Source: a virus
Length of the DNA stretch: 22,411 nucleotides
Strand: one strand, 5' to 3'
IMG/VR virus record: IMGVR_UViG_3300018080_000628
Location: 1-22,411 of that record
The position numbers and the translations under genes are program-made. Shown here one piece after another: positions 12,380-21,605 of this stretch. Numbering within the stretch: the first letter of the stretch is position 1; the number at the start of each line of letters is the position of its first letter. The notes beneath the pieces are model-generated. The model worked only from the letters and a program-made list of their open reading frames with translations. It had not been told where the DNA came from and searched no databases.

Positions 12380-13765
12380 TTAAAATGAGAATAAGAGCGG
12401 CTCTTGAGACCTGAGTCCGATCGTTCCCTGTATTTTATAGCGACAGGCATCAGCGGCATCATCAAATTCTTTTTTCGGTCGCTCGCTGTCCGACTTGTCG
12501 CTCCATGCTAACGATTCTAATTGCTCGATTGTATTTTCACAAGTCGAGTCGATCTCGAAAGCTGGGCCGTGATCGTCTCGACTAAAGAGGTCATTCATGG
12601 TAGCGGCTCCCTCTTTAAAGTCGGTGTACTGTCGCCGCTCGTCAGTCTCTGGCTCAAACATCGGCCAGCCGTCATCTCTCCAGTCTGTGATCGTCCCCGG
12701 TCTTGACGGGTCAGAGTATATCATATCGACTGAAAACTCCCCGTGAGTGTCCATGAAATCTCTCAGCTCCCGGATGACCCGCTCTTTACATTGGCTGTCT
12801 GAGAGATCGGTCTCATGTATCTCCCGGTAAATCCTGATCCGGTCGCCGCCCAGTAACTGACCGATCAGGAAAGCGAAAGGATGACGGAATCCCCAGTCAG
12901 CCCCAGCGATCAGCGGGACTCCGGGGATCGGCTCAAGGTTGTCCCGGACATGCCATGGGAGCCCGTGTCTGGTCGGCGAGAAATGCTTAAAGACAGCCCC
13001 GGCCAGAGCTGTAAACTCAGCCATGACCTCTTGTAAGAAAAGATCGAGCCGCCCGGCCCTGATACATTTTTGCTTATACTTTTCGATCCGGGCCTTGTCG
13101 ATGTGAGGGTTATCGTATGAGCTCGCTGTCGAGACATAGTATGAGCCGTCAGTCCTAGACTGAGTCTCCCAGTCCTTATAGGTCTTAGTAGCGTGATTCA
13201 TCCGTCCCTGAGGCGTGGTCGAGATGATGATCCGACCGCCTGTCGCCCATGTCGGGGGCTCCAGATACTGATCGAGGATATTGTCTTTATCTCTGGCGTG
13301 TTCGTCAGCGAGGATCAGGGCGACCCCGTCTCCCAGTAGAGAGGTCGGCTCTTTCGTGGTTTTCCCCTCGACCCTCGCTCCCCATGGCATCTCGATGTAT
13401 CTCTGGCGTTGAGACTTAGCTGTCGGCCTGACCCCGAATATATTTTCCTCGACAATCCAGTCCCACATGTAATTAAAAATCCTGTCAGTGACATCGGTCT
13501 CAGGGCCTGTGATCTCGACCAGTCTCTTAGGGACTCCGGGCTGGGGGCCATAGGCCATCTCTGTAGTCCCCTCGATGGCTGAGTCGATCGATTTCCCGGT
13601 CTGGCGGCCCCAGTTTTTATAGACTCTGGTCGCTCCCCGGTCGATCGCTCTCTGTGTCTGGACTTGCTTAGGGTGAGGGGTGTAATCGAGCCGGGCCATG
13701 ATCCGGTTTCTCCAGCGAGCCCGGTCGAGTCGATGGATCAGCTGTCTCTGGGTCTCGATATTCAT
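12380..13765 (-). CDS. terL: Terminase large subunit (ATPase and nuclease)
   Basis: The product has 461 residues. ATPase: Walker A GRQTGKS (53-59), Walker B LILADE (150-155, with catalytic E155) and coupling motif IISTTP (180-185). RNase H-like nuclease: first Asp in AGADWG (D290), second in YSDPS (D352), third in EFDDAADACRY (D435/D436/D439). All needed residues are present, so it should be active in cutting and pumping DNA into proheads. It overlaps the small subunit gene by 4 bases (ATGA) and has no strong ribosome site of its own, which suggests coupled translation. Confidence 0.95.
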   Translation of the reverse strand: MNIETQRQLIHRLDRARWRNRIMARLDYTPHPKQVQTQRAIDRGATRVYKNWGRQTGKSIDSAIEGTTEMAYGPQPGVPKRLVEITGPETDVTDRIFNYMWDWIVEENIFGVRPTAKSQRQRYIEMPWGARVEGKTTKEPTSLLGDGVALILADEHARDKDNILDQYLEPPTWATGGRIIISTTPQGRMNHATKTYKDWETQSRTDGSYYVSTASSYDNPHIDKARIEKYKQKCIRAGRLDLFLQEVMAEFTALAGAVFKHFSPTRHGLPWHVRDNLEPIPGVPLIAGADWGFRHPFAFLIGQLLGGDRIRIYREIHETDLSDSQCKERVIRELRDFMDTHGEFSVDMIYSDPSRPGTITDWRDDGWPMFEPETDERRQYTDFKEGAATMNDLFSRDDHGPAFEIDSTCENTIEQLESLAWSDKSDSERPKKEFDDAADACRYKIQGTIGLRSQEPLLFSF

Positions 13766-14307
13766 GACGTGCTCTGAGGCTCTGAGGGGCTCTCTGTGGC
13801 CCGATCGTTATTTTCCGATGGATCGGTCTCGACCTCTATATCCTCGCCCGTGAGATCGTAATACAGCTCTTTCAGGACGGCTGGGGTCAATAGGGCGGCG
13901 AGTTCTTCCTCAGTGGTCTCTCCGGGGGCTTTCATCCGTCCGGTGATCCTGAGCTCTGGCGGCGGGAAGAAATTACAATTCTCCATGAGCCATCGGCTGT
14001 CATCACGATTACCCTCTAAGATCGACTCAGCGATGTTATCAGCGGCGTGGTAGATGACCTGATGATCGAATACGTCAAACAGACAGTCCCTGAGCTCCCT
14101 CTTAAACTCCGGGTCGTTATAATCCCGGTTGACTGTGGACTTATCCGTCTCGATCCCGATGTCAGCGAGCCGCTCAGCCATCTCTCGACAGGACGATTTA
14201 TGGCGATCCTCGATCATGAGACGGATGATCCCCTGTCGCCTCTCATGCTGTTTTACTAAATTAGCGAGGCTGATTTTCTTTTTCGGCTTTTTTCGCTTTT
14301 GTCCCAT
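13762..14307 (-). CDS. terS: Terminase small subunit (DNA recognition)
   Basis: The product has 181 residues. A Lys-rich start (QKRKKPKKK) precedes a helix-turn-helix-like region (residues about 20-70: IIRLMIEDRHKSSCREMAERLADIGIE), then helices for oligomerisation and an acidic Ser/Pro/Glu C-tail that could contact the large subunit. The assignment rests mainly on this layout and on coupling to terL. The ribosome site is weak (GAGACACC before the ATG), and two adjacent palindromes lie 12-33 bases upstream, so its expression may be controlled. It is the first gene of the late operon. Confidence 0.8.
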   Translation of the reverse strand: MGQKRKKPKKKISLANLVKQHERRQGIIRLMIEDRHKSSCREMAERLADIGIETDKSTVNRDYNDPEFKRELRDCLFDVFDHQVIYHAADNIAESILEGNRDDSRWLMENCNFFPPPELRITGRMKAPGETTEEELAALLTPAVLKELYYDLTGEDIEVETDPSENNDRATESPSEPQSTS

Positions 14308-14318
14308 GGTGTCTCATT

Positions 14319-14340
14319 TATGATATCATACCTCATGAGG
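14319..14340. promoter_or_regulatory. Two adjacent perfect palindromes upstream of terS
   Basis: TATGATATCATA (14319-14330) is followed without a gap by CCTCATGAGG (14331-14340); both are perfect palindromes. They lie 12 bases before the terS start in the 201-base gap between terS and the divergent lipoprotein gene. They could bind a regulator or the small terminase (pac or cos region). The rest of the gap holds three purine-rich repeats on the minus strand (GGAGAC, GGAGAG, GGGAGAC at about 14350-14385). I see no clear terS promoter. Confidence 0.5.
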
Positions 14341-14432
14341 GCCGGGGTGTCTCCCTCTACCTCTCCGGTAAAGTCTCCTGTCAGGGCCGTACACTGTCCC
14401 CCCCAGTCATATATCCCCGGCTCTCGCCCCTC

Positions 14433-14461
14433 TTTTAAATCGTCAGCCTGTCCTGTATTAT
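14433..14461 (+). promoter_or_regulatory. Candidate promoter of the lipoprotein gene
   Basis: A poor -35 (TTTTAA, 14433-14438) and a fair -10 (TATTAT, 14456-14461) are 17 bases apart. The palindrome at 14470-14484 covers the expected start of transcription. This is the only plus-strand gene and it needs its own promoter, but the -35 match is weak. Confidence 0.4.
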
Positions 14462-14469
14462 TATCCCCA

Positions 14470-14484
14470 TGGTCATGATGACCA
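14470..14484. promoter_or_regulatory. Operator-like palindrome TGGTCATGATGACCA
   Basis: Perfect 7-1-7 inverted repeat just downstream of the candidate -10 and upstream of the ribosome site, so a bound repressor would block transcription. This suggests the lipoprotein gene is regulated, for example by host or prophage state. The binding protein is not in this window. Confidence 0.55.
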
Positions 14485-14508
14485 AATAACAAGAAAGGAG
14501 TCTTTATC

Positions 14509-15087
14509 ATGCGACTGAACCTCTCGATTGTATTTCTCACGATCCTGATCCTGTGTATGGGATGCTCGACCTCGACATCGATCGCCCCGGAGATCATCGA
14601 GCCCGATCCGGGCCCGGAGATGACAGCTCAGATATACTGGCCTGAGACGACCGGGACGATCTGGGAAAATGTCGATGTGTCAGGCTATCAGGAAAAATTC
14701 ATCGAGTACGGTCTCGATCAGCTTGTGATCGCCCGGAGAGCCCAGACGTTCTGGGAGTATGACCCCGACTTTATCCCGGACGGGACGACCATGACCCCGA
14801 CTCAGATCGTGGTCACGTTGACCGGGGAGCTTACCGCTCAGAATTTCGGCTGGGGCCCTGTCGGTAATTTCACAGGATGCGATGTCTACGTCCTGATGTA
14901 TTGGCAATTATGGGAGTATGAAATTAACAGTCTCCCGCCCCCGCTTAATGCGGCCTCTTACTGGGTATGGGTCATGGAGTTTAACGGGTATGATTGGCCA
15001 AATGAGCCGACTGTTTTCCCGTGTGATGAGTGTCCCGATTATCAGGATATTGGATTCGGAGAGATGGTCTGCTATCCTCTGGAGTGA
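14509..15087 (+). CDS. Predicted lipoprotein, sole plus-strand gene (moron candidate)
   Basis: The product has 192 residues. The N-terminus MRLNLSIVFLTILILCMGCS is a basic start, hydrophobic core and lipobox-like CMGC, with C19 as the lipidated residue; Cys at -3 is unusual. Ser at +2 would favour outer membrane sorting if the host is Gram-negative. The mature part is Trp/Tyr/Asp-rich and acidic, with four more Cys near the C-terminus (GCDVY, PCDECPDY, MVCYP) that may form disulfides. I do not recognise the family. Ribosome site AAAGGAGT is 7 bases from the ATG. It has its own promoter, palindrome and terminator and opposes the late operon, the layout of a moron gene. Superinfection exclusion or surface change of the host is a plausible role, not shown. 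Confidence 0.85.
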   Translation: MRLNLSIVFLTILILCMGCSTSTSIAPEIIEPDPGPEMTAQIYWPETTGTIWENVDVSGYQEKFIEYGLDQLVIARRAQTFWEYDPDFIPDGTTMTPTQIVVTLTGELTAQNFGWGPVGNFTGCDVYVLMYWQLWEYEINSLPPPLNAASYWVWVMEFNGYDWPNEPTVFPCDECPDYQDIGFGEMVCYPLE

Positions 15088-15117
15088 GACCCGTCAAGAT
15101 CGTCTAGTTAGTAAAAG

Positions 15118-15146
15118 CCCCCGGTTAATGTCCGGGGGATTTTTTT
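15118..15146 (+). terminator. Rho-independent terminator of the lipoprotein gene
   Basis: CCCCCGG, 7-base loop TTAATGT, CCGGGGG, then ATTTTTTT. It is very strong on the plus strand. Read from the minus strand, the same stem is followed by CTTTTAC, so it may also end transcripts of the convergent gene at 15166. Confidence 0.93.
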
Positions 15147-15165
15147 GTCGGTCTTGACCGGGGCG

Positions 15166-15522
15166 TTATTCCGATCTGGGATCGCTGGGCTCAGTGTCTC
15201 CGGGATCGTCCTCAGCCGGGGGATTCTCATCGCCTGTCGTGACCTCAGCTGTGGTCTCGTCAGTGACAGGATTCTCGTCAGCTGTCGGCTCTGTGGCTTT
15301 CGGGGCCTCAGGCTCAGACTCTCTCTCGACCTTGATGACTTTCATCTGGAAAATGGATGTCATCGGACAGTAGACCGCCTGATCTTTCCCGTCAATATAC
15401 ATGATCCCGCCGTCAGCCAGAGCCTGTTTAGCTTTGTCATGGGCGGCGGTCTCGCTGTCACAGGGGAGATCGATCTGTCCGGTTCCCGATGTATAGACCT
15501 TTAAAATCCAGTCATGCTCCAT
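15166..15522 (-). CDS. Small protein with acidic disordered tail
   Basis: The product has 118 residues from MEHDWILKVYTSGTG. The open frame reaches 15648, but that part crosses a hairpin and a -10 box; ATG 15522 has GAGGT 8 bases upstream and is preferred. Residues 1-65 alternate in hydrophobicity and look like a small beta domain (GGIMYIDGKDQAVYCPM, SIFQMKVIKVERE). Residues 66-118 are Glu, Asp, Pro and Thr with almost no hydrophobics. No family recognised. It has its own promoter and lies between two hairpins with the same stem, as an independent cassette. Confidence 0.7.
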   Translation of the reverse strand: MEHDWILKVYTSGTGQIDLPCDSETAAHDKAKQALADGGIMYIDGKDQAVYCPMTSIFQMKVIKVERESEPEAPKATEPTADENPVTDETTAEVTTGDENPPAEDDPGDTEPSDPRSE

Positions 15523-15553
15523 GGAGTGATACCTCGCTTTGAGATTTTCCCGG

Positions 15554-15562
15554 ATTATAACA
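15554..15562 (-). promoter_or_regulatory. Extended -10 promoter (TGTTATAAT)
   Basis: On the minus strand TGT TATAAT is a perfect extended -10 box, which needs no -35. The -35 position falls in the preceding hairpin and has no match. It lies about 19 bases before the ribosome site of the gene starting at 15522. Confidence 0.55.
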
Positions 15563-15566
15563 CAGA

Positions 15567-15594
15567 AAGCCCCCGGCTGACGACCGGGGGAGTT
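15567..15594 (-). terminator. Hairpin terminator after the DUF1937 gene
   Basis: CCCCCGG, 7-base loop, CCGGGGG, with the same stem as the terminator at 15118. On the minus strand it follows the DUF1937 stop (15620) and is followed by CTTTCTGTGTT, a poor U-run, so termination may be partial. Its downstream edge merges into the next promoter. Confidence 0.65.
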
Positions 15595-18641: not shown

Positions 18642-18955
18642 CAGCCCCGGCCCTCGCCCTTTTTCTTATCCCCTGTCAGGACTTTTTTCTGGAGATCAGC
18701 GATGATCCTCTGATCCTCGATCGCCTTAGCCTTAAATTTATTGAGTATCCCGGCGAGCTCATCCAGTCGATCGAGAGCGTCAGCCCGGCCATCGTAAGCG
18801 GCATTTCTAAACTCAGTCGGATGTATGAGCGGCCCCAGAGCCTGAGAGGCGGCGATCCTCGCCCGGTATCCGTCAAGGTCAAGCTGTCCGACCAGTCCCT
18901 CTAATAATCTGATCTGATGTGTGGTCGTCTCAAATTGCTCATCTGTCATCGCCAT
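18641..18955 (-). CDS. Small helical protein, function unknown
   Basis: The product has 104 residues from MAMTDEQFETTTHQIR. The frame extends to 19123, but GGAGAG lies 5 bases before ATG 18955, which overlaps the DUF5131 gene by 17 bases, so the short form is preferred. It is almost all helix with heptad-like Leu/Ile spacing (IRLLEGLVGQLDLDGYRARI, DALDRLDELAGILNKF), probably a dimeric coiled coil. Its end is basic. Its stop overlaps the next ATG. No family recognised. Confidence 0.75.
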   Translation of the reverse strand: MAMTDEQFETTTHQIRLLEGLVGQLDLDGYRARIAASQALGPLIHPTEFRNAAYDGRADALDRLDELAGILNKFKAKAIEDQRIIADLQKKVLTGDKKKGEGRG

Positions 18956-19673
18956 GATTTCTCTCCGGTAGCTGATCCCAGACCCGGCCATCGAGGATCG
19001 GCATTTTCTCTGTTGAATTTTGCTTATAGAAAAATGGGACGCTAAACATCTCACACTGGAATTGAGCCGACCGGGCCCAGCTCTCGTCAAAGTCCCTCGC
19101 CCCCTGTCCAGACTCAGCTCCACAGATCAGCCAGTGGATTTTATCTGTCTCGATGAAAGGGCGAAAATTAATATCCTCAAGGGCTGGCTCGTAACTGATA
19201 AACCGGACAGCCGCCAGAGTCTTGAGTAGAAATGGGATGTCCCGGTCAGCGTCAGCCTGTGTCGAGACTGAGACCCCAGCCCAGATGTTAGGTAGATGTT
19301 TTCCCAGATTGAGCTGAGGATCGCTGAGGATATTTTTCATCCTCTCCGGTCGCTTAGTCAGTATCTGGAATACATGCTGGGGACACTTATAGATCGTCTC
19401 CATGACCTGATCTATCCAGTCGAGCTTAACGTCCTCATGAAAGAGATCGCCCATGGAGCAAACAAAAATCATCGAGGGCTTTCTCCATGAGAGCGGCTGG
19501 GTGATTTTATCCCGGTGAAATGTGACCCTGAAAGGATCGTCAGCCGGGTAGCCATATCGCCCCCGGAGCCGCTTTGACATTTTCTCAGCGTAACAATTTT
19601 TACAGCCCTGAGCGATCTTAGTACAGCCAGTGATCGGATTCCATGTCCGACCCGTCCACTCGATTTTAGTCAT
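18939..19673 (-). CDS. Phage Gp37/Gp68 family protein (DUF5131, radical-SAM-like)
   Basis: The product has 244 residues. The family start is clear: IEWTGRTWNPITGCTKIAQG, then CKNCYAE, giving Cys 17, 24 and 27 (CX6CX2C), which may hold an iron-sulfur cluster. Other family phrases are FVCSMGDLFHEDV, FQILTKRPERM, WAGVSVSTQADAD, ICGAESGQGARDFDESWAR and FFYKQ. The family is widespread in phages; its reaction is not established to my knowledge. It is translationally coupled to the HNH gene (ATGA). Full length, no missing motif. Confidence 0.9.
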   Translation of the reverse strand: MTKIEWTGRTWNPITGCTKIAQGCKNCYAEKMSKRLRGRYGYPADDPFRVTFHRDKITQPLSWRKPSMIFVCSMGDLFHEDVKLDWIDQVMETIYKCPQHVFQILTKRPERMKNILSDPQLNLGKHLPNIWAGVSVSTQADADRDIPFLLKTLAAVRFISYEPALEDINFRPFIETDKIHWLICGAESGQGARDFDESWARSAQFQCEMFSVPFFYKQNSTEKMPILDGRVWDQLPERNHGDDR

Positions 19674-20113: not shown

Positions 20114-20404
20114 TCAGTCATCGTCCGGGCCATTGTATCGCCAGCGATCGGCGGCCCATGGGTTAGTAAAATATTTCCAGCCGAAATAAGGCGGCTGATC
20201 TCTGGTCGGGATATCGAGAGTCCTCATGTAACACGACCATTTCTCCCTCTCAGAGCCCCCGTCATCCCCATAGCTGACAGAGCCAGACTCCAGAAATGGG
20301 GGCCAGAGCCGCCCTGAGGCTGTACAGACGGCGAAATCGATCGTCATATACAGACAGACCACGATCCCGATGATCGACAGAAACAGACAGCCTGAGCGGG
20401 TCAT
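20114..20404 (-). CDS. Small single-span membrane or exported protein next to the endolysin
   Basis: The product has 96 residues. Residues 5-27 (GCLFLSIIGIVVCLYMTIDF) form one membrane segment or uncleaved signal anchor. The rest is polar and aromatic (RLWPPFLESG, PPYFGWKYFTNPWAADRW) and would lie outside the membrane if N-in. Its ATG overlaps the endolysin stop (ATGA), so it is in the lysis unit and could be a holin-like or spanin-like protein. The long aromatic tail is unlike classic holins, so this role is tentative. Confidence 0.7.
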   Translation of the reverse strand: MTRSGCLFLSIIGIVVCLYMTIDFAVCTASGRLWPPFLESGSVSYGDDGGSEREKWSCYMRTLDIPTRDQPPYFGWKYFTNPWAADRWRYNGPDDD

Positions 20405-21272: not shown

Positions 21273-21605
21273 TCAAGCGAGCGACTGTATGAGACGGCAG
21301 TAAAATTTTCCGTCAGCGTCAGTCGATGATATGGCCCGTCCAAATGGGGCCGACCCTGATCCCGGATCATCGATGAGCCTGATGAGTTTGTTATCCTCAT
21401 CGATCAGGATCACGTCTCCGATCTCGACCCCGGCCAGCTCAAGCTCGAATACCCCCTCAAGCTGAAATGAGAGTGTCTCCCCTGAGCTGACGCTCAAGAG
21501 GGCGACCCCGTTAAAGCCATGGAGCCTGTACGGTCTCCCTGACTCATGGGATCGGTCAGCTGTAAGCGAGATGACCTCGCCCCGGCTGATGTAATTCTGT
21601 GCCAT
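21273..21605 (-). CDS. DUF2190 family protein (capsid decoration/cement-like)
   Basis: The product has 110 residues. It fits DUF2190: start MAQNYISRGEVISLTADRSH, then SGRPYRLHGFNGVALLSVSSGE, LEGVFELE, a GDVILIDEDNKL strand, and FGRAISSTDADGKFYCRLIQ. Members are small beta proteins usually found near the capsid gene and thought to decorate heads. Here it is far from the capsid, before the endolysin. GGGAGA lies 8 bases before the ATG, inside the end of the preceding gene. Confidence 0.8.
   Translation of the reverse strand: MAQNYISRGEVISLTADRSHESGRPYRLHGFNGVALLSVSSGETLSFQLEGVFELELAGVEIGDVILIDEDNKLIRLIDDPGSGSAPFGRAISSTDADGKFYCRLIQSLA

Follow-up and report, generated by a model that had tools for sequence, protein, structure and literature searches.

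A predicted moron-like lipoprotein cassette beside the packaging genes of a tailed phage

Phage lipoproteins and the setting of the locus

Transcriptome work regards an antisense position among lytic genes as a hallmark of moron loci, and it counts bor and lom among the lambda genes that lysogens express from the prophage (PMC7067206). We checked that bor, whose product is an outer-membrane lipoprotein, is encoded antisense, with the lysis genes on one side and, on the other, the genome end joined to the terminase genes. Exclusion lipoproteins such as Llp (T5), Cor (T1, phi80, N15) and Rtp45 (Rtp) are phage-encoded and Sec-exported; Llp and Rtp45 carry a disulphide (PMC9586334, PMC12685063), Rtp45 is ~6 kDa (PMC12685063) and Llp has been called small, while llp sits directly downstream of the T5 receptor-binding gene (PMC9586334). 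Ltp, a surface lipoprotein of temperate Streptococcus phages (TP-J34), has been argued to be a moron with its own promoter and terminator (PMC3952083). Finally, the o-spanins (Rz1 and others) are phage outer-membrane lipoproteins whose lipoboxes can be non-canonical (AWAC, LNGC and FVGC, of which AWAC was picked for experimental test); in the spanin survey concerned, no two partner genes lay further apart than ~1 kb, and the pair averaged at most 250 residues in total (PMC6139136).

The DNA analysed here (the window) is the whole of IMG/VR virus record IMGVR_UViG_3300018080_000628, a linear sequence of 22,411 bases that is probably a phage fragment. Tailed-phage genes were recognised for the large terminase, portal, head morphogenesis protein, prohead protease, HK97-type major head protein, head-tail adaptor, amidase endolysin and head decoration protein, together with genes for DUF5131 and ASCH-domain proteins, an HNH endonuclease and a DUF1937/deoxyribosyltransferase-like protein. 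All of these are on the minus strand, as is a probable tape-measure gene. Indeed, as the initial annotation had noted, one gene opposes all others: a 192-aa ORF is the sole plus-strand gene, with all other plausible genes of the window on the minus strand. The head decoration (Phage_cement_2) gene (21273-21605, minus strand) lies among the right-end genes, distant from the head gene block.

The phage appears to belong to a poorly sampled lineage. Relatives of its large terminase in viral contigs are only 25-30% identical, motif scans found no relative of this protein among 84,980 species genomes and none of the major head protein, and no close relative of the phage emerged from the terminase and head protein searches. 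In contrast to this rest of the phage, which has no close relatives, the DUF5131 (phage Gp37/Gp68-type) protein (18939-19673, minus strand) shares ~45% identity with proteins of mycobacteriophages and Gordonia phages. The test that defines a moron, presence of the gene in one phage and absence from a near relative, would need such a close relative. All loci retrieved through the terminase or portal lacked a comparable antisense lipoprotein, and at the corresponding place the annotated distant relatives carry nothing of this kind.

Lambda Bor is the best positional analogue, as in both cases a single antisense gene, for a lipoprotein in lambda and for a predicted one here, lies at a junction near the terminase end; however, there is no sequence relation (no Pfam match), Bor has 97 aa against 192 here, and it is expressed in lysogens whereas the present protein is known from sequence alone. 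Predicted Sec export of a phage-encoded, probable lipoprotein is the likeness to Llp, Cor and Rtp45, to which no homology was found, and the disulphides of Llp and Rtp45 would parallel those probable here; the mature protein here, at about 20 kDa, differs from the small Llp and Rtp45, and its gene adjoins the small terminase rather than a receptor-binding or tail-tip gene. Homology to Ltp was likewise not found, and Ltp has characterised temperate relatives, unlike this phage, which has no known close relative. Compared with the o-spanins, the gene differs in size, distance and strand, and no recognised spanin partner was found in the window. Membership of the Bor, Llp/Cor/Rtp45 or o-spanin groups is therefore not claimed.

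The gene and its flanking signals

The reading frame scores 0.26 bits per codon, against 0.12-0.54 for the phage's own genes, and the remaining five frames over the same stretch score at most 0.04. Because this coding score is joined by a ribosome site and a terminator (Table 1), the gene is real beyond reasonable doubt. Among 21 genes it ranks lowest for phage-typical synonymous codon use (similarity 0.126, compared with 0.177-0.370 for the others), and all 57 slices of other genes score higher (lowest slice 0.139). The effect is modest, and the gene is only slightly atypical in its codons; the GC content of the region is ordinary and its 3-mer make-up unremarkable (74th percentile). Reversed strand skew was tested as the source of the atypical codon use and does not account for it.

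Table 1. Positions in the window of the cassette, its neighbours and a candidate lysis gene
Feature	Position	Strand	Basis
Putative small terminase gene	13762-14307	-	ORF list
Divergent intergenic region between the predicted lipoprotein gene and the putative small terminase gene	14308-14508		sequence, ORFs
Promoter-like hexamers, weak (TTTAAA-16-TATTAT)	14434-14461	+	9/12 matches
Palindrome TGGTCAT-G-ATGACCA (7-nt arms, 1-nt centre)	14470-14484		exact repeat
Ribosome binding site AAGAAAGGAG	14491-14500	+	sequence; 8 nt before ATG
Predicted lipoprotein gene, 192 aa	14509-15087 (stop included)	+	ORF, coding score, sequence
Outer inverted repeat around terminator, 10 nt	15093-15102 / 15149-15158		sequence
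Bidirectional intrinsic terminator, common to the convergent minus-strand gene	15118-15138		sequence, folding
Convergent neighbour gene	15166-15522	-	ORF; extended -10 TGTTATAAT
Possible i-spanin partner, 96-aa protein	20114-20404	-	overlaps endolysin gene stop; N-terminal membrane segment

The initial annotation had credited this gene with a promoter-like sequence of its own, a perfect palindrome at the start point, a strong ribosome site and the textbook terminator of a self-contained unit. The ribosome site is indeed among the best in the window and better than those of most neighbouring genes. The promoter-like hexamers exist as described; however, sites of the 9/12 class occur near the chance rate (22 in 20 kb, compared with 14.2 ± 3.8 in shuffles), and a promoter belonging to the gene is plausible on this sequence. 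The palindrome is exact and well placed, starting 9 nt past the -10-like hexamer, near the inferred transcription start, and it occurs once in the window. Its significance had nevertheless been overstated: a palindrome with 7-nt arms and a spacer of 0-1 appears in 1.9% of simulated 201-nt spacers, and one with a spacer of up to 8 in 7.8%, so that it is only mildly unusual. As RNA it folds no better than shuffles, and it is possibly an operator. A six-codon leader frame (MVMMTK, 14469-14489) lacks a ribosome site and was regarded as fortuitous, and no Rfam element was found.

The terminator has 7 G-C pairs followed by a T tract, ATTTTTTT, and the segment 15085-15160 folds with z = -4.5. Its strength is thus as the initial annotation had it, but it is not private to the unit: it also reads on the minus strand, where it ends the convergent gene.

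Three further observations concern the flanks. The core of the outer inverted repeat, TCAAGAYCG, has four copies in the window where 0.85 are expected, and the arms that flank the terminator account for two of them. The convergent gene probably starts at ATG 15522 and encodes 118 aa (MEHDWILK at its start) with an acidic tail rich in Pro, Thr and Glu; its extended -10 directly follows a terminator hairpin (15590-15570) with a stem matching that of the terminator in Table 1, and the interval 15166-15590 (minus strand) forms another self-contained orphan cassette, which converges on the predicted lipoprotein cassette. On the other side, two abutting perfect 10-bp palindromes, ATGATATCAT and CCTCATGAGG, lie at 14320-14340, a short way before the start of the putative small terminase gene. 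The N-terminal half of its product has a weak match to the ArgR DNA-binding domain (E = 0.0007), and these palindromes are possibly an autoregulation or packaging site.

The predicted protein and the search for relatives

The N-terminus is of the export type. Residues 1-18 form a signal with Arg2, a hydrophobic core and the end ...ILCMGC, which places a candidate lipidated cysteine at position 19 and Ser20 at +2. A Ser/Thr/Pro-rich stretch follows Cys19, and there is no second hydrophobic or membrane segment. The lipobox, C16-M17-G18-C19, departs from the consensus [LVI][ASTVI][GAS]C at -3 (C) and -2 (M); lipidation at Cys19, while unproven, is likely from the sequence despite these deviations, because such deviations occur in phage lipoproteins (PMC6139136). 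The secreted lipoprotein of the initial annotation hence keeps its export-type N-terminus with Cys19, with the reservation that its lipobox is off consensus at two positions.

The mature part, 174 residues including Cys19, has a mass of about 19.9 kDa and a pI of 4.05. Relative to the phage's other proteins it is rich in Trp and Tyr (20 of 174 residues where 7.8 are expected, P = 1e-4) and depleted in Lys and Arg (3 of 174 where 20.5 are expected, P about 8e-7), both P values assuming independent residues and having been computed after looking. Asp and Glu are ordinary (27, with 26.1 expected), and the acidity of the mature protein thus comes from the loss of basic residues. Its domain contains Cys124, Cys172, Cys175 and Cys188, and the last three, together with Cys124, could form disulphides after export. 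The initial annotation had already drawn attention to the aromatic residues, to the Cys-rich end and to the lack of a recognised family, all of which agree with our analysis.

No family was found for the protein in Pfam, NCBIfam, PHROGs or PADLOC; the Pfam search, which included the curated phage lipoprotein families, gave no match at E up to 10, and none at E up to 1 with the full protein. In tblastn searches, the best hit among phage records had E = 0.4 and covered part of the protein, and plasmid records gave no match. The best PDB sequence (E = 0.51) was judged to be chance. Motif matches numbered 7 in viral contigs and 27 in genome contigs, with no relative among them, in scans that rely on exact matches of 8 residues and whose reach is limited to close relatives. 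AlphaFold2 without an alignment yielded nothing usable (mean pLDDT 38 for the full and 33 for the mature protein). Duplication of another window protein and an internal repeat were both rejected, as their best local scores lay within the range of one shuffle set. By these sequence searches, the protein appears to be an orphan in a known kind of arrangement.

Candidate functions and their alternatives

The moron-type unit proposed in the initial annotation fits the anatomy of the locus, given its antisense orientation, its place at an operon junction, its own ribosome site and terminator, its atypical codons and its exported product. The exclusion or conversion role proposed with it does not carry over in the same way, as there is no homology to any known exclusion protein and as the size differs from that of Rtp45 and the gene position from that of llp. 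The anatomy gives good support to a moron-like envelope lipoprotein cassette, and the best explanation as a whole, to which we assign a probability of about 0.58, is an accessory cassette of moron type whose envelope lipoprotein would alter the host surface.

Several other explanations account for parts of the same evidence. A lipoprotein for host conversion, as Bor is, made in the carrier cell to serve the host (through resistance to predators, serum or bacteriocins, or through adhesion) rather than phage exclusion, is the somewhat unlikely reading suggested by a gene position and orientation of the same type as in lambda bor and by the outer-membrane sorting signal. It is weakened by the empty Pfam search, the curated phage lipoprotein families included, by the difference in length from Bor, and by the window genes scanned, among which no integrase or repressor was recognised, so that a lysogen is itself an assumption. 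An o-spanin-like lysis partner, breaking the outer membrane with an inner-membrane protein, is improbable. The only PHROG matches are to Rz-like spanins (sub-threshold, E = 0.026 and 0.03), and no spanin is recognised elsewhere in the window; however, these matches span residues 6-54 only, mainly signal peptide and linker, and were rejected as signal-peptide-driven. Furthermore, the gene lies ~5 kb from the endolysin on the opposite strand, its separation exceeds the maximum in the spanin survey, its 192 aa compare with an average there of at most 250 residues for both genes (PMC6139136), and the product is without the central poly-proline stretch of Rz1. The 96-aa protein encoded at the endolysin stop has one N-terminal membrane segment, a Trp/Tyr-rich ectodomain (11.5% W+Y) and no family; it is a candidate lysis protein.

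More improbable still is an unrecognised virion or tail-associated protein that is reverse-encoded by happenstance. A composition rich in aromatic and acidic residues and the adjoining packaging genes would suit it, but the protein carries an export signal, its gene stands outside the structural operon, and homology to a virion protein, which the initial annotation had named as counter-evidence, was searched for among structural families of Pfam and PHROGs and not found. That the ORF arose in a spacer by chance is hardly credible: the absence of a homologue from every search is what such an ORF would give, but against it the coding score, the ribosome site and the terminator agree with the export signal and with the length of 192 codons.

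Under the accessory-cassette explanation, the gene would occupy the junction between a minus-strand block ending at 15166 and the packaging-structural operon starting with the small terminase at 14307. It would be transcribed toward the former, apart from both blocks, and stopped at the common bidirectional terminator. The product would leave the cytoplasm by the Sec pathway, probably receive a lipid at Cys19 and be anchored in the envelope, with Ser at +2 sorting it to the outer membrane if the host is Gram-negative. There its acidic, aromatic-rich and probably disulphide-bonded domain may bind a surface component and so change the host surface, for which we consider the chances roughly even. 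The likeliest benefit would be that other phages, or the phage's own progeny, are kept off the infected cell or cell debris; superinfection exclusion specifically is one guess among several, and a rather doubtful one. It is more speculative still that the protein may be the first of a new family of receptor-blocking phage lipoproteins, larger at about 20 kDa, almost without Lys and Arg and rich in aromatic residues, which would use a domain unlike the small Llp/Cor/Rtp45 plugs.

As sequence alone settles no function, the predicted lipoprotein should be seen as a reasonable candidate rather than a discovery. Surface-altering phage lipoproteins decide which other phages infect a cell; the structurally solved Llp and Rtp45 are very small, and a larger orphan with clear cassette boundaries would lend itself to cloning and direct testing.
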